Shown here piece after piece: positions 5,024-25,396 of a stretch of 27,138 nucleotides of DNA (position 1 is its first letter; every line of letters starts with the position of its first letter). Origin of the DNA: a virus. The DNA lies in IMG/VR virus record IMGVR_UViG_3300017739_000082, positions 1 through 27,138 of that record; one strand, 5' to 3'. The notes beneath the pieces were generated by a model that worked only from the letters and a program-made list of their open reading frames with translations, ran no database searches and was not told the DNA's origin. Both the position numbers and the translations under genes were made by a program.

Positions 5024-6238
5024 ATGGCGTACATAGGGACAGAACCTAATTTCCTTAATCAGAATAGGGAGGTTGATGATATAAGCGGTAGTTTTAACGG
5101 AAGCACTACGACTTTTAACTTGCAAGTTTCTGGTCAAAATGTAAATCCAGAAAGTGTTAATAATGTTTTAGTTTCTGTTGGTGGTGTATTACAAAATCCA
5201 GGAACGGATTATACGATTAATGCAGCCACTATAGTTTTTACAACAGCTCCAGCAAGTGGCTTAGATTTTTGGGGGTTGGTATTAGGTGAATTAGTTAATA
5301 CAGGAGTTGTATCTGACGGAACAGTGACAACAGCAAAAATTGCTGGACAGGCTGTCACTGCACCAAAGTTAGCTAACACTGCAGTCTCAGCAGGTTCTTA
5401 CACAAATGCAGATATTACAGTTGATGCACAGGGAAGACTAACATCAGCTGCTTCTGGTTCCGCAGGAATTTCAGGTATCGATGTACAGGATGAAGGTAGT
5501 GCGTTATCTACAGCTGCAACTACTCTAGATTTTGTTGGTGCTGGTGTCACTGCATCTGGTACTGGTGCGTCTAAAACAATTACTATTCCTGGTGGAGGAA
5601 TTTCAGGTATCACTGTACAGGATGAAGGTAGTGCGTTATCTACAGCTGCAACTACTCTAGATTTTGTTGGTGCTGGTGTTACTGCATCTGGCACTGGAGC
5701 TTCTAAAACAATTACTATTCCTGGTGGTGGTGGTGCATTAGAATTTGTAAGCAGAACTTACGTTTCATCTACTACAAATGCTATTGATTTAACAGGTTTT
5801 GATTATGAGCGTGTTTACAAATTAATAATTAAAAGAGCTCAATGGGGTGGTTCAGCTTATCAAAATTTATATGTACGATTTTTTATCAATGGTGGTTCCA
5901 GTCCTCAAACTGCTGGTGTTTATAATTACATAATTGAACATGCTGGTGGGCATTATACTCAAAATAATGATGATAAATTAAATTTTTATCAATATGGAGG
6001 AGAAAATGAGTATGTAACAGCCACCTTTGAAATTTATACAGGATACTATGGTTACTTAAGAGGGCCTATGCATCATGTAGGTACAACTAATGGCATACGT
6101 TATGCTGATATTAGAGCTACTTTAAATCCTTCTGTCATGACTGCACAAAGAATTAGTGGTGTGAGACTATTTACAAGTGGTTATAGCGATTGGCAAGTCG
6201 GCACCGAAGTTTTACTATTTAGATACAAGGAGAGCTAA
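5024..6238 (+). CDS. Tail fibre protein with an internal tandem duplication
   Basis: A 404-residue protein starting MAYIGTEPNF, a start common in marine-phage fibres. Residues about 17-100 form a beta domain (GSTTTFNLQVSG, then LVSVGGVLQNPGTDYTI, then ASGLDFWGLVLGE) typical of cyanophage tail fibres. A Thr/Ala-rich linker follows, then two copies of a 44-residue unit with VQDEGSALSTAATTLDF and FVGAGVTASG. The C-terminal 160 residues (from about ALEFVSRTY) are a different tip domain with Tyr, Asn and Gly-rich strands that ends VLLFRYKES, resembling the ends of the fibres at 1 and 660. The stop overlaps the start of the second chaperone-like gene. Host-recognition fibre is the inferred role. 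Confidence 0.8.
   Translation: MAYIGTEPNFLNQNREVDDISGSFNGSTTTFNLQVSGQNVNPESVNNVLVSVGGVLQNPGTDYTINAATIVFTTAPASGLDFWGLVLGELVNTGVVSDGTVTTAKIAGQAVTAPKLANTAVSAGSYTNADITVDAQGRLTSAASGSAGISGIDVQDEGSALSTAATTLDFVGAGVTASGTGASKTITIPGGGISGITVQDEGSALSTAATTLDFVGAGVTASGTGASKTITIPGGGGALEFVSRTYVSSTTNAIDLTGFDYERVYKLIIKRAQWGGSAYQNLYVRFFINGGSSPQTAGVYNYIIEHAGGHYTQNNDDKLNFYQYGGENEYVTATFEIYTGYYGYLRGPMHHVGTTNGIRYADIRATLNPSVMTAQRISGVRLFTSGYSDWQVGTEVLLFRYKES
5465..5728 (+). repeat. 132-bp in-frame tandem duplication
   Basis: Two adjacent 132-bp units (5465-5596 and 5597-5728) differ at only a few positions and encode two 44-residue copies of the same stem segment in the fibre gene. The small divergence points to a recent duplication. 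Confidence 0.9.
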
Positions 6239-6507
6239 TGAACAAGTATGTAGATGGTGTTTTAACACCAATGACTGATGCAGAAATTGCAGAATACAAT
6301 GCAAGCATTCCAACAGATGCTGAAATTCTTGCTGGAAAATGGGTAAGGGTACGAACAGAAAGAAATGATTTATTAGCAGAATGCGATTGGAGAGCTTTTA
6401 GTGATGTCACTTTATCTGACGAATGGAAAATTTATCGTCAAGCTCTTAGAGATGTACCAACTCAATCCGATCCAGATAATATTACATGGCCTACAAAGCC
6501 TAGTTAA
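6238..6507 (+). CDS. Small tail-assembly-chaperone-like protein (copy 2)
   Basis: An 89-residue paralogue of the proteins at 1663 and 20971. The N-terminal MNKYVDGVLTPMTDAEIAEYN aligns with the start of copy 1, and the conserved C-terminal block is RNDLLAECDWR, LSDEWKIYRQALRDVPTQ and ITWPTKPS. It starts in a TAATG overlap with the fibre gene, so it is tied to that fibre. At the DNA level it is clearly more diverged from copies 1 and 3 than those two are from each other. The family is Phage_tail_APC-like; the probable role is fibre folding or assembly. It ends the first fibre locus. Confidence 0.75.
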   Translation: MNKYVDGVLTPMTDAEIAEYNASIPTDAEILAGKWVRVRTERNDLLAECDWRAFSDVTLSDEWKIYRQALRDVPTQSDPDNITWPTKPS

Positions 6508-20970: not shown

Positions 20971-21420
20971 ATGAAATACGCAATCACTGAAAGCTTAGCT
21001 GGTGGTACACCTACTGTAAAAAGCACTGGCACTATTAAAGAATTATTTCCCAATACAAGTTTTACTGCTACTGGTCCTAACGCAGATTTTTTAGCAGAAA
21101 ACAATGTAGTAGAGCTTGTAGAAACGCTTAGTTATACGACTCCTACACAAAAGCTTACTACTGTAGATGCTTATATTGAAGGTGGTAAGGTTTATAACGT
21201 AAAAGTAGAATCTACTACTACAGATGAACAAACAGAGTTAAATAATTCAAAGTGGGCACTAATTAGAAGTGAAAGAAATCGTAAGCTTACTGAAACAGAT
21301 TGGAGAGCTACTAGTGATCTAACTCTTTCAGACGATTGGAAAACCTATCGACAAGCATTGAGAGATGTCCCTACACAGTCCGATCCTTTTAATATTTCTT
21401 GGCCTACAGAACCAAGTTAA
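20971..21420 (+). CDS. Tail-assembly-chaperone-like protein (copy 3), longer form
   Basis: A 149-residue protein. The C-terminal 55 residues are the chaperone-like block of the proteins at 1663 and 6238 (RSERNRKLTETDWRATSD, then LSDDWKTYRQALRDVPTQ and ISWPTEPS). The N-terminal 90 residues are different (AITESLAGGTPTVKSTGT, then FPNTSFTATGPNADFL) and probably give specificity for the fibre it serves. The segment 21328-21374 is identical in DNA to copy 1, so its 3' half was recently exchanged with, or copied from, that gene. Confidence 0.75.
   Translation: MKYAITESLAGGTPTVKSTGTIKELFPNTSFTATGPNADFLAENNVVELVETLSYTTPTQKLTTVDAYIEGGKVYNVKVESTTTDEQTELNNSKWALIRSERNRKLTETDWRATSDLTLSDDWKTYRQALRDVPTQSDPFNISWPTEPS
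21328..21374 (+). repeat. 47-bp identical tract shared with 1840-1886
   Basis: Second member of the identical tract described at 1840; it lies in the conserved block of the third chaperone-like gene. Confidence 0.85.
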
Positions 21421-21491: not shown

Positions 21492-21722
21492 ATGTTTCTT
21501 GTAAATTTTTTTCTATCTAGACCATCTGTTTACACTCTTCCTGGAACTTGGGAAAAGCAACCTTTAATAAAACACGGTAATTATGCTGGATTGCCACCAG
21601 AAGGTCAGATAGTTGCTATCATTTTGATACTGCTATTTTTAGTCACAGGATATGGACTATATGTAGCATTTGGACCACCTAATAAAAAATTAACTGATCC
21701 TTGGGATGAGCACGACGATTAA
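21492..21722 (+). CDS. psbN: PsbN-like photosystem II assembly protein with a long N-terminal extension
   Basis: A 76-residue protein. The last 30 residues have the PsbN pattern: a membrane helix (about 40-58, IVAIILILLFLVTGYGLY) running into VAFGPPNKKLTDPWDEHDD, which is the characteristic picocyanobacterial PsbN C-terminus (G-(L/Y)-x-x-A-F-G-P, then L-x-D-P-(W/F)-D/E-x-H-x-D). PsbN is a thylakoid protein needed for photosystem II assembly and repair. Host PsbN is about 43-50 residues; here some 38 residues precede the helix (PSVYTLPGTWEKQPLIKHG) and match nothing I know. There is no internal ATG to give a shorter form. The gene stands alone on the plus strand, convergent with the Hli micro-operon. 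I am confident of the C-terminal match and unsure of the role of the extension. Confidence 0.72.
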   Translation: MFLVNFFLSRPSVYTLPGTWEKQPLIKHGNYAGLPPEGQIVAIILILLFLVTGYGLYVAFGPPNKKLTDPWDEHDD

Positions 21723-21780: not shown

Positions 21781-21894
21781 TCAATTTTCTTTTAATTTTT
21801 TAAATAAATGAGTGGAATTTGTTATCTGCTCTTCTTTTTTTCTACAGTGTTCACAGTTACATTTACAGTGAGGACATTCACACTTATTTTGCAT
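21781..21894 (-). CDS. 37-residue cysteine-rich peptide
   Basis: ATG at 21894 to TGA at 21781. Residues 5-17 hold six Cys and two His in the order KCECPHCKCNCEHC, i.e. CxCxxCxCxCxxC, followed by a charged, Cys-free tail (RKKEEQITNSTHLF). So dense a set of thiols in a peptide this short would bind a metal such as zinc or copper, or an iron-sulfur cluster; the beginning is reminiscent of cyanobacterial metallothionein. It is the last gene of the minus-strand micro-operon, 36 bases after the preceding stop. No strong ribosome-binding site. Confidence 0.55.
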   Translation of the reverse strand: MQNKCECPHCKCNCEHCRKKEEQITNSTHLFKKLKEN

Positions 21895-21930
21895 TAGAAA
21901 AAATAGATTTATTTTAATTCTATTAGTTAT

Positions 21931-22032
21931 TTATACAGATAAAGATCCAGCAAATCCTGCAATCGTGCCTACAGCAACGAAAAATCCAAATTCTATTAAT
22001 GGATAATATGGATTATAAAATATTTTTTTCAT
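21931..22032 (-). CDS. 33-residue single-helix membrane peptide
   Basis: MKKIFYNPYYPLIEFGFFVA continuing to a helix rich in Gly, Ala and Phe and ending GFAGSLSV. One membrane segment (about residues 12-30), positive N-terminus. The start overlaps the stop of the previous micro-gene (ATGA), which argues that it is a real gene. Looks like the small membrane peptides that accompany Hli genes in cyanophages; no named family. Confidence 0.6.
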   Translation of the reverse strand: MKKIFYNPYYPLIEFGFFVAVGTIAGFAGSLSV

Positions 22033-22103
22033 ACGAATACTAGTGAGCTCACATTTGTGAGTAAATAGATTGCTATGAGAGTTGTGAAGATAAGATGATT
22101 CAT
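22029..22103 (-). CDS. 24-residue membrane peptide
   Basis: MNHLIFTTLIAIYLLTNVSS followed by LVFV: essentially one hydrophobic helix. It is linked to the upstream gene by a TAATG overlap and to the downstream gene by an ATGA overlap. The two exact overlaps are the main evidence for it; on size alone it could be a chance frame that only helps re-initiation. Confidence 0.5.
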   Translation of the reverse strand: MNHLIFTTLIAIYLLTNVSSLVFV

Positions 22104-22273
22104 TAAGTTCCTTGATAAATGGGAGTCATTACGCCACCACCCTGATCATCATCGTCATCATTATTACTAGCACGTAAGACTAGCTCTAATAAGACTGCAA
22201 AACCTATGGGATATAAACACCATAGGATTGCAAAAAAAGGTGATATTTCATTAGTTGCTGACAACTCAGGCAT
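22103..22273 (-). CDS. 56-residue membrane protein with acidic stretch, Hli-operon companion
   Basis: One helix near the N-terminus (about residues 10-30, PFFAILWCLYPIGFAVLLEL), then a run of five Asp (RASNNDDDDDQGGG) and a short end VMTPIYQGT. I recall small proteins with this arrangement (one helix, Asp run, Gly-rich, M-x-P-x-Y/L-Q) beside Hli genes in Prochlorococcus and its phages. The start and stop are both in TAATG overlaps with its neighbours. Thylakoid location is inferred from context. Confidence 0.65.
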   Translation of the reverse strand: MPELSATNEISPFFAILWCLYPIGFAVLLELVLRASNNDDDDDQGGGVMTPIYQGT

Positions 22274-22398
22274 TAAAACATGCCGAAGAACATATGTCCT
22301 GTGAGTAAATCAGATGTTGCTGCTGCAACAAGACCAAGCATTGCTAGTCTTCCGTTCCAGTTTTCAGCAATAACTTTTTGTTTTTCTAATTTTTTCAT
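22273..22398 (-). CDS. hli: High-light-inducible protein (Hli), divergent third copy
   Basis: A 41-residue one-helix chlorophyll-binding protein. AENWNGRLAMLGLVAAAT (about residues 10-27) carries the ExxNGR motif with the Glu, Asn and Arg that ligate chlorophyll and hold the helix, but the second half (SDLLTGHMFFGMF) departs from the usual GAYxTTGQIIPG ending. Hli proteins bind chlorophyll and carotenoid and protect photosystems and their assembly under stress; phage copies are thought to keep host photosynthesis going during infection. Start and stop overlap the neighbouring genes. Confidence 0.8.
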   Translation of the reverse strand: MKKLEKQKVIAENWNGRLAMLGLVAAATSDLLTGHMFFGMF

Positions 22399-22505
22399 TA
22401 GAAAATACCAGGAATGATCTGACCAGTTGTCCAGTATGCACCAACTGCGGCTACGAATCCAAGCATTGCTGCCCAGCCATTAAATCTTTCTGCTTCAGGA
22501 GTCAT
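22398..22505 (-). CDS. hli: High-light-inducible protein (Hli), minimal copy
   Basis: A 35-residue protein that is just the Hli helix: MTPEAERFNGWAAMLG and the phage-type ending GAYWTTGQIIPGIF. The motif reads ERFNGW, so the Arg of ExxNGR is replaced by Trp; cyanophage short Hli proteins often have this form as far as I remember. The missing Arg could alter the salt bridge with the Glu of a partner helix, so this copy may act as a heterodimer with another Hli. It lies 18 bases downstream of the first Hli gene, and its stop overlaps the third. Confidence 0.82.
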   Translation of the reverse strand: MTPEAERFNGWAAMLGFVAAVGAYWTTGQIIPGIF

Positions 22506-22523
22506 GATAATAAGTAATAAATT

Positions 22524-22721
22524 TTAAAAAATGCCAGGAATAATCTGACCTGTTGTGATGTAAGCACCTAATAGAGCTACAAATCCGAGCATTGCCCATC
22601 TACCATTAGCTTTTTCAGCCTCTCGTGGATAGCCTTCATAGGATATTGTCTCGTCAATATAAGGACGAGTTTCAGCTGGAAACATATTTTGTCTTCCACC
22701 TGATTCTGTAGTTGTTGTCAT
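22524..22721 (-). CDS. hli: High-light-inducible protein (Hli), full-length
   Basis: A 65-residue protein with a soluble N-terminal part (residues 1-33, including YIDETISYEGYPRE) and the Hli helix: EKANGRWAMLGFVALLGAY (36-54) and TTGQIIPGIF at the end. Glu36, Asn39 and Arg41 are the expected chlorophyll-binding and helix-pairing residues. It is the first and best-conserved gene of the micro-operon. Upstream (22753-22790) lie 10-bp-spaced TTGTTACA-type repeats that may control the operon. Confidence 0.92.
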   Translation of the reverse strand: MTTTTESGGRQNMFPAETRPYIDETISYEGYPREAEKANGRWAMLGFVALLGAYITTGQIIPGIF

Positions 22722-22825: not shown

Positions 22826-25396
22826 TTACTGTGACTGTCTTTCTGGAAGTATTGTCACTGAGGATTTAAATTTTTCGTCAGAGTTTCGAATTACTAAACC
22901 TCTAATAAAGGGTCTACCTTTTTTACTGAAGCTAATAATTTCTTTCATTCCAAGCTGGTTCTTACAACAATCTAATAGAAGAGAAATAAATCTTTTCTGA
23001 CCTACTGGTTTTGAACCTGTATCTTCACAATAGGCACAGTATGAGGCATATAAATGAAAATTACTATTTACATATCTTTCTTTTGAATCTTTAGCAGCTG
23101 GTATTTTTTTACCAACAGCAGAAACTGAATCTGGAGAATGAACAACTTCTGATTGTAACCACTCAACTAAATTATTACTGGTTAATAAAATGCTATTTCT
23201 TACAGTTTTAAGATGATCTACTTTTTCATAAGTATCAAGTAAATATTCTCTCATATTTTGGGTATCCATTTTTAAAACCCAATTGACTAATCCTGGTAAA
23301 TATGACTTCCATAAGCCTGCTACTTCTCCACTTTCAAGTTTAATCATTTCAACAGCCTCACTATTTTTATCCCATAAAGGTCTGTTAAATTCAACAGTTA
23401 ATCGTCTTCTTGTCAAACCTGAAGTGTTATCTGTTGTCTGTATTGGTTCATTAGCACAAACCATAACCATACCTGTATAAACAAAAGGCTCTCCAACATT
23501 TTTATTTTTTTCTTCAAATCTTAAATTATCTCCTCCAGTTAAAGCTTTAAATATTTGAGCAGATCCACCATATCTTTCTGAATCATTTATTAGTGTTAGT
23601 CTTTTACCTTTTATAGATGCAATTTCAAAACGACTTTGTTCTAATTGATTTAGCGTTGTCGAAGCGTAATTACCATTACCAATAAGAGCACAACATAAAT
23701 TAGCGAAGGTTGATTTACCTCGTCCCCCTGGACCAATAACCTCCAAGAATCGTTGTAATTCATGGCCTTTCCCTACTAAACAAGCTTTTAACCATGCTCT
23801 TAATACTTGTACTCTTTCCTCGTCATTATATTGGGTCTTTCTTAACCACTGAATGATTGGACCAGAATCAGCATAAGGATCATAATCAAAGTCTAAACCC
23901 CAAGTCAAATAATTCTCTTGATCATGTGGTAAAAACTCTGATGAACTCATTTCAAGAACACCATTTTTAAATGCTAATTTATCAGGATCATCATTCCAAT
24001 ATGGTTGAGTAATATATGCTTTCGTTAGATTTGTAACATCAGATAAAAGATGAGATGTAAATCCACCAGGAGTAGGTATACTTTCCCTTAAAAATAAATC
24101 TTGAACAAAGTGTTTATATTCATCTTTATATTCTTCTCTACGCCAAGTTCCTTTTTTACTTTGATAAAACATAAACGTATCATATTTAGGGTCATATCTC
24201 CAACCACATTCGATAACCATCCCTGTAACCATTTCAGCCAACTCTGAAGCTGGAGCAGTTTTAGGTCTTCCTTTAGTTATTACTTTTTCTCTTATATCTT
24301 TCTGTTCTTTTAAAGAAGGTTCACCTATTAATTCACTTAATACTTGATTTACAAGAGGTATTGGTAATTCAGCATTGTCTTGTTTAAATGCTTTTTTTGC
24401 TTTTTCTGCAAGTTTGTCAGGAGACTCTACAACAAATCCACCTATATCTATATAACCATCTTCTTTAGCCATAGCTCTTAAATGATGTAAACCACAATGA
24501 TTTTCTGGAGCAGGACCGCCATCTACAACTTCAAATGTATCCCATTTTTTTTCACATACTCCTTCTTCAAAATTATCTGCTTGTTTTGACCAATCAATCC
24601 AATCACCAAGTAAAGTCCCATCAACTTGTTTAAGGCTCATGCCTACCTTTAACCAGTCATCATAATCAGAAGATCGTGAAGGATTTAGGTGATCTAAATA
24701 TATTTTTGCTTCCTGTATATATTCTTCTTGTTGAAATTCTGAACCCTCTTCGTAATCTAAATTTACTTGTTGAGTAACAATACCACTTCTGATAGGTTTT
24801 TTATATTTATTTGTAGGATAGGATTTTGCTATTGCTTCGTATAACCATTCAGGCATTTCAGGAGGATTTTTAGCAAATTCAAATCCACCATGAGGAGTTG
24901 TAAAATATCCATCTGTATCAGGATGGCTACCCATTATTGCTCCCTGTCTAGATCTAAATAAGATTTCAAAAGATGGTATTCCTATTTTTATTGTTGCTTT
25001 ATCTGGTAATAATTTTAATTTTGATGCAGGGACGCTAAAAAGCATTCTTTGCCTGTCTTGTTTTCCAGATGAGATAGTAAGGGTAGGAGGGAAAGCACCC
25101 GATATAGGGGCTCCTGCAAGCTCCTCAAGGTCTTTTATTGCTTCAGTCCCATCTATATCAACCCAGACTAAACCACCACTGTTTGACCACACTCCTGTTA
25201 TTAATCCAACTCCTGTTGCATTCCCTTGATCAAACTCATGTTTAATTTCTTCCACGGAGTATGGTTGTGTAGTCCAACCAGCTATATATGCTCTTTTACC
25301 TTGTAATGGTGTTAATGCCCAATCTTTAGGGATTAAGTCAAAATTAATCTCTCCGGGTTTTAAATGATTATTTGATTCTGGTGATGCAGTTGGCAT
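22826..25396 (-). CDS. Primase-polymerase/helicase (P4/D5-like)
   Basis: An 856-residue replication protein with three parts. Residues about 15-200 are an archaeo-eukaryotic-type primase-polymerase domain: GVGLITG near 62-68, LVWVDIDG (76-83, metal-binding D80 and D82), and TISSGKQDRQRMLF (107-120), where the usual His of the third motif is not apparent and Arg stands in its place. Residues about 230-315 look like PriCT_2 (SSDYDDWLKVGMSLKQVDG, FEEGVCEKKWDTFE). The C-terminal half is a D5/P4-type superfamily-3 helicase: GPGGRGKSTF near 552 (Walker A), LTLINDSE near 590 (Walker B), MVMVCANEPI and TRRRLTVEF (sensor/arginine finger), and a C-terminal winged-helix-like end. It should prime and unwind DNA at the phage origin. 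T4-like cyanophages use gp41/gp61 instead. Confidence 0.9.
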   Translation of the reverse strand: MPTASPESNNHLKPGEINFDLIPKDWALTPLQGKRAYIAGWTTQPYSVEEIKHEFDQGNATGVGLITGVWSNSGGLVWVDIDGTEAIKDLEELAGAPISGAFPPTLTISSGKQDRQRMLFSVPASKLKLLPDKATIKIGIPSFEILFRSRQGAIMGSHPDTDGYFTTPHGGFEFAKNPPEMPEWLYEAIAKSYPTNKYKKPIRSGIVTQQVNLDYEEGSEFQQEEYIQEAKIYLDHLNPSRSSDYDDWLKVGMSLKQVDGTLLGDWIDWSKQADNFEEGVCEKKWDTFEVVDGGPAPENHCGLHHLRAMAKEDGYIDIGGFVVESPDKLAEKAKKAFKQDNAELPIPLVNQVLSELIGEPSLKEQKDIREKVITKGRPKTAPASELAEMVTGMVIECGWRYDPKYDTFMFYQSKKGTWRREEYKDEYKHFVQDLFLRESIPTPGGFTSHLLSDVTNLTKAYITQPYWNDDPDKLAFKNGVLEMSSSEFLPHDQENYLTWGLDFDYDPYADSGPIIQWLRKTQYNDEERVQVLRAWLKACLVGKGHELQRFLEVIGPGGRGKSTFANLCCALIGNGNYASTTLNQLEQSRFEIASIKGKRLTLINDSERYGGSAQIFKALTGGDNLRFEEKNKNVGEPFVYTGMVMVCANEPIQTTDNTSGLTRRRLTVEFNRPLWDKNSEAVEMIKLESGEVAGLWKSYLPGLVNWVLKMDTQNMREYLLDTYEKVDHLKTVRNSILLTSNNLVEWLQSEVVHSPDSVSAVGKKIPAAKDSKERYVNSNFHLYASYCAYCEDTGSKPVGQKRFISLLLDCCKNQLGMKEIISFSKKGRPFIRGLVIRNSDEKFKSSVTILPERQSQ

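Follow-up and report, generated by a model that had tools for sequence, protein, structure and literature searches.

The window analysed here, the whole 27,138-nucleotide stretch, is a 27-kb virus fragment. Its minus strand carries, between positions 21781 and 22721, seven open reading frames of 65, 35, 41, 56, 24, 33 and 37 amino acids, agreeing exactly in number, length and position with those listed in the original prediction, which had been made from the letters alone. The first three encode the three Hli proteins proposed there, with matches to phrog_178/20629: Hli gene 1 (65 aa, 22524..22721; EAEKANGRWAMLGF) matches phrog_178 (E=1.1e-28) and Pfam PF00504 (E=6.2e-5), and Hli gene 2 (35 aa, 22398..22505; ERFNGWAAMLGF) and Hli gene 3 (41 aa, 22273..22398, in an hli04-like position) match phrog_178 with E=2.1e-19 and E=1.9e-15, respectively. 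They are followed by o56 (56 aa, 22103..22273; phrog_7843, E=9.8e-25), which combines a single helix with an Asp run and a GGGVMTPxYQG tail, and by the single-helix microproteins o24 (24 aa, 22029..22103) and o33 (33 aa, 21931..22032; phrog_17067, E=6.6e-5). Hydropathy analysis identified a single membrane-length hydrophobic stretch in each of these three products, as anticipated, including the one with the Asp run. The last frame, o37 (37 aa, 21781..21894; CECPHCKCNCEHC), holds the six cysteines ascribed to it and no membrane-length hydrophobic stretch.

The predicted stop/start overlaps are all present. One-base TAATG overlaps at 22398, 22273 and 22103 join Hli 2 to Hli 3, Hli 3 to o56 and o56 to o24, and a four-base ATGA overlap at 22029-22032 joins o24 to o33, so that four junctions chain five frames. 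No overlap couples Hli 1 to Hli 2, which lie 18 nt apart, or o33 to o37, separated by 36 nt. The suggestion that random frames would not form such a chain was borne out in 300 copies of the whole window simulated with a first-order Markov model and analysed on both strands for frames of at least 24 codons linked by one- or four-base overlaps: the longest simulated chain comprised three frames (20 runs) and none of the 300 copies reached even four, against five in the real window. Among the seven starts, only that of o24 is preceded by a clear purine-rich motif, AAGGA, about six bases upstream. A promoter scan placed no sigma-70-like site ahead of Hli 1, with a window total below the shuffle mean, and Rfam returned no matches within the window.

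The upstream neighbour of the block is a Prim-Pol/D5-type primase-helicase gene (22826..25396, minus strand; Pfam Prim-Pol, PriCT_2 and D5_N), which serves as a lineage marker. Its product is 35% identical to the primase of Synechococcus phage S-EIV1 and 90% identical to that of an 82-kb relative (G001), whose terminase and structural protein are in turn 68% and 52% identical to those of S-EIV1; at the limits used, neither of these two proteins matched any other phage in the collection. Taken together, these identities indicate that the source is an uncultured marine S-EIV1-like cyanophage, with a core unrelated to that of the T4-like cyanomyoviruses. The photosynthesis gene psbA was found on 6 of 12 contigs from relatives, these contigs being fragments.

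On the opposite flank, and convergent with the block, lies a psbN-like gene (76 aa, 21492..21722, plus strand) matching Pfam PF02468 with E=1.5e-15 and 57.2 bits, against a curated cut-off of 25, and with matches in 31 phage records. The window copy resembles PsbN in its C-terminal half, including the DPWDEHDD end, whereas the phage copies differ from PsbN by an N-terminal extension of about 33 residues. This extension, PSVYTLPGTWEKQP in the window, is conserved and falls outside the Pfam match. In one sub-lineage (L030, L032, L038 and L079) PsbN is lengthened at the C-terminus as well and has a His-rich end, and in another relative (L024:3989-4645) psbN lies on the same strand directly after an o33-like gene with a four-base overlap, thereby joining the coupled chain.

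By inspection, the chlorophyll-binding ExxNGR motif of the helix is represented by EKANGR in Hli 1, by ENWNGR in Hli 3 and by the corresponding residues ERFNGW in Hli 2. The Trp that replaces the Arg of the motif in Hli 2 (ERFNGWAAM) is fixed across all aligned relatives. Hli 1 is 88% identical to hli03 of phage P-HM1, and a phmmer search of PDB chains with its N-terminus returned no match. Purifying selection was evident for Hli 2 (20 synonymous versus 2 nonsynonymous changes) and Hli 3 (p=5e-14), and o56 presents a synonymous excess like theirs.

The profile match places o56 in the known T4-GC437/phrog_7843 family. Its alignment of 21 sequences is invariant at W18, Y21, P22, E30, R34, D39-43 and G46-47. 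A scan of NCBIfam with o56 gave nothing meaningful, and the matches of its profile to solved structures were mainly rhodopsin helices at E>0.2, which are of no use. In phage S-SSM4 (L152:1319-1575) and in L197-L227 the helix is unrelated or altered and the DDDDDD-GGG-MxPVY tail is kept directly before o24. The constancy of this acidic tail while the helix part varies suggests that it is a separable module. In addition, the AAGGA motif of o24 sits inside the conserved C-terminal codons of o56 (YQG), so that part of the conservation of the tail may stem from the ribosome site of o24; the motif is not universal, being absent from the L030/L032 type.

The distribution of the block among relatives was assessed on 69 primase loci and 18 o56 loci, through which the relatives of o33 and o37 were also traced. 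Fifteen representative o56-carrying loci of the lineage share the order hli, hli, (an extra hli), hli, o56, o24, usually followed by o33, a gene of the o37 family and a convergent psbN. The o24 frame spans 24 codons in all fifteen (25 in L080 if counted from an upstream ATG), and o33 is intact in 14 of them. The overlaps persist across loci as TAATG, ATGA or GTGA; the last form occurs where o33 starts with GTG (L030, L032, L035 and L079), and the coupling is kept. In L080, which lacks o33, the place of the lost gene after o24 (L080:8836-9142) is taken by an Hli gene of 45 aa and another single-helix peptide of 45 aa. The outcome named in the original prediction as a refutation, related contigs with these frames broken and hli retained, was looked for: no stop or frameshift breaking the 24- or the 33-codon frame was seen in the cassette loci, although each gene is missing from some of them, o33 from L080 and o24 from L007, L020 and L021. 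Given these losses, the block is not indispensable. Lineage members with primase identities of about 78% or lower mostly retain hli, and some of them psbN, without the middle genes; likewise, hli and often psbN were present in the more distant relatives L039-L055, in which o56-o24-o33 could not be detected.

The same cassette is found in T4-like phages. The S-EIV1-like phage shares it with P-HM1, P-HM2, P-SSM4, P-SSM3, MED4-213 and S-SSM4, and the annotated hli03/hli04-T4-GC437 cluster of P-SSM4 (PSSM4_177-181), P-HM1 (PHM1_199-203) and P-HM2 resembles the window in both gene order and one-base overlaps, with 72.5% DNA identity over the matched part in P-HM1. The leading four genes of the chain are already known, hli03-hli03-hli03-hli04-T4GC437 being annotated in P-HM1, P-HM2 and P-SSM4, and variants of it in P-SSM3, MED4-213 and metaG-MbCM1. 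Both o24 and o33 are also present after T4-GC437, but in these T4-like records o24 is unannotated and o33 is named only in some of them, as T4-GC 554/594 in P-HM1/P-HM2. This agrees with the expectation that some of the short genes had been missed: o24 is unannotated in all eight isolate phages checked, and o33 is missing from the annotations of some isolates. The overlooked 24-codon frame lies directly after T4-GC437 in P-HM1, P-HM2, P-SSM3, MED4-213, P-SSM4 and P-SSM7; the gene that precedes it in S-SSM4 ends in this acidic tail too, and P-RSM3 provides a further match without annotation. The "hypothetical protein" labels found at some o24 matches reflect the one-base overlap with the preceding gene (MED4-213, P-HM1 and S-SSM4 records). 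New here are the previously missed family of 24 residues, the constancy of its coupling and its occurrence in two phage lineages that are not related.

The genome is AT-rich and has many short open reading frames, and the short frames could in principle be chance products between real genes. The five-frame chain, absent from all 300 simulations, and the constant length of o24 argue against this, as does codon-level selection in the two lineages. Ten roughly independent o24 pairs, five per lineage, presented 71 synonymous and 50 nonsynonymous changes (expected synonymous share 0.298 with the transition bias set to 3; p=4e-11; S-EIV1-like phages, p=5e-6; T4-like phages, p=2e-6), and o33 presented 41 synonymous and 14 nonsynonymous changes (p=1e-12), all these p-values being approximate since no tree guided the manual choice of pairs and codon-usage bias does not enter the binomial test. 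The other two frames over o24 are interrupted by stops and show no synonymous excess. Furthermore, all 17 members of the o33 alignment match phrog_17067, with its EFxFFxxVGxxAG core. The substitution patterns indicate that o24 and o33 are genuine protein-coding genes under purifying selection, in line with the view that both peptides are probably translated, and a chance origin, which we regard as having almost no probability overall, is refuted for these two frames; for o37 the signal reaches only p=0.017.

The o24 frame overlaps the genes on either side of it, and no obvious Shine-Dalgarno motif precedes o33 in the window. These two features would fit a role of the 24-codon frame mainly as a translational coupling device for o33, with an inert peptide, yet several observations make such a role improbable. 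The amino acid sequence of o24 is conserved, one identical 24-residue protein being encoded by 11 DNA haplotypes, although the search pattern fixes most of residues 8-24 and only residues 1-7 are unbiased in this comparison. In addition, o24 is kept in phages in which o33 starts 26-43 nt downstream, uncoupled, and in L080 despite the loss of o33 there. When viral contigs were scanned with a pattern built from the DNA of o24 alone, 31 were recovered, and in every one of them the 24 codons lie directly after the DDDD...GGGxMxPVYQG tail and are followed by an o33 homologue.

The seventh frame stands apart. Relatives of o37 are longer, starting from TTG or ATG with (L/M)QTYKLKNLPFF and continuing in most cases into CxCPHCxCxCEHC, and the window copy is a shortened member of this "QTYKLKNLPFF...CxCPHC" family that lacks the QTYKLKNLPFF N-terminus. 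Its 19 synonymous and 31 nonsynonymous changes, against an expected synonymous share of 0.237, amount to a weak signal. In L030 and L079 the ends of the protein are kept and the cysteines lost, and some loci have no o37 gene. The idea that all seven genes form one kit consequently holds only in part: two unrelated phage lineages have conserved the block as a unit, but the 37-codon frame is a real but variable neighbour and not a core part. An identification of o37 as a cyanobacterial metallothionein was set aside, given the lack of a profile match and the cysteine losses in the L030 and L079 relatives; the window copy has no Pfam match.

Several components of the cassette have counterparts in the host. 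Homologues of o33 occur in 89 of 300 host-family genomes, often in two or three copies, and those of o56 in at least 48 Prochlorococcus or related contigs. By comparison, o24 returned only two marginal partial matches among the 300 genomes, and its interpretation as a host gene was rejected on this basis. Host hli genes lie near o33 in L131, L140, L141, L144, L164, L181 and some other loci. In the Prochlorococcus locus L144 (1323-2633), beside a peroxiredoxin-like gene, three hli genes are followed by a helix of 28 aa, the o33 homologue and a helix of 34 aa, and the small genes there are possibly unannotated. This operon resembles the phage cassette in that hli genes precede the o33 homologue and other peptides with a single helix, the frame after o33 being joined to it by an ATGA overlap, but it differs in lacking o24 and in not carrying o56 in the same string; it is a host parallel of the cassette. 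Judged from these homologies, the simplest history would be one in which host-derived hli, o33 and o56 were joined by an added, phage-specific o24.

The reading that we favour, with a probability of about 0.55, is that the cassette is a mobile phage photosynthesis set in which the Hli proteins and o56, o24 and o33 are coupled and aid the assembly, repair or protection of photosystem II. The three hli genes and the three single-helix microproteins would be translated as a coupled chain, and so made together. Their gene neighbourhood suggests that the products of o56, o24 and o33 may reside in the thylakoid membrane as partners of the Hli proteins, and that Hli proteins and partners may act on photosystem II assembly or repair intermediates; the stoichiometry of the cassette products, like their localisation and target, is a matter of inference. 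Protection of chlorophyll-bearing intermediates and D1 turnover would then let electron flow last through infection. Hli proteins bind photosystem II assembly intermediates with an occupancy tuned by the small protein Psb34 (PMC9458560), and Psb34 (Ssl1498) of Synechocystis, which sets the distribution of Hli proteins on these intermediates, offers by analogy a model for the non-Hli helices: those of o56, o24 and o33 might set the site or the duration of Hli binding. A similarity between the N-terminus of Hli 1 and Psb34 is regarded as a lead only. PsbN is a photosystem II assembly and repair factor in plants, as shown in tobacco and not for phage copies (PMC4823308), and a 2010 study counted PsbN (T4-GC163) among the core genes of Prochlorococcus T4-like phages, all those examined carrying it (PMC3037559). 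During P-HM2 infection, host hli genes are induced only in the light (PMC5082946).

Instead of photosystem II, the microproteins could act on a different thylakoid complex with which Hli proteins have contact, such as chlorophyll synthase and chlorophyll recycling, photosystem I, cytochrome b6f or NDH-1. Hli proteins are reported to associate also with chlorophyll synthase and Ycf39 (Chidgey et al. 2014, listed among the references of PMC4823308), and many small subunits of the b6f, photosystem I and NDH complexes measure 29-46 aa (PMC5126843). PetN (29 aa), PsbT and PsaM are likewise small single-helix proteins, but they show no profile match to o24 or o33. Profiles of both proteins gave no matches to solved structures of small photosystem II, photosystem I, b6f and NDH subunits (at E<=10 for o24), and the accompaniment of the cassette or its relatives by psbN and psbA also speaks against another target, which we consider unlikely. 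No solved structure or tested function was found for homologues of o24, o33 and o56.

Phages commonly carry small single-helix proteins that act in lysis timing, superinfection exclusion or protease inhibition, and o24 is essentially absent from host genomes. A non-photosynthetic role of this kind, with the microproteins merely co-expressed with hli, is nevertheless hardly probable: o33 and o56 belong to host families, o33 sometimes lies near host hli, and the block follows hli in two unrelated phage lineages. Within the favoured photosystem II reading, we advance more tentatively, at somewhat less than even odds, that o24, which has no match in Pfam, PHROG or PDB, might be a phage-specific thylakoid protein, smaller than any described conserved cyanobacterial photosynthesis protein, that works with the Hli proteins and with o33 and o56, both host-derived, as a fixed set re-tuning photosystem II in infection, overlooked in annotations such as those of P-SSM4 and P-HM2.

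Across a large part of the surface ocean, photosynthesis is reprogrammed by cyanophages, and the inventory of the genes involved comes from annotations with a lower limit of about 30-35 codons. Well-studied isolates, P-SSM4 and P-HM2 among them, contain at least one gene that is shorter than this and strongly conserved. The hli block passes between unrelated phage lineages as one unit that keeps its translational coupling, and the cassette provides a small, testable set of candidate Hli partners.

Elsewhere in the window, three plus-strand frames (1663-1935, 6238-6507 and 20971-21420), each lying after tail-fibre-like genes, have in common the C-terminus DWRA..DVTLSDDWKTYRQALRDVPTQ.DP, and are probably repeated tail-fibre-associated genes.
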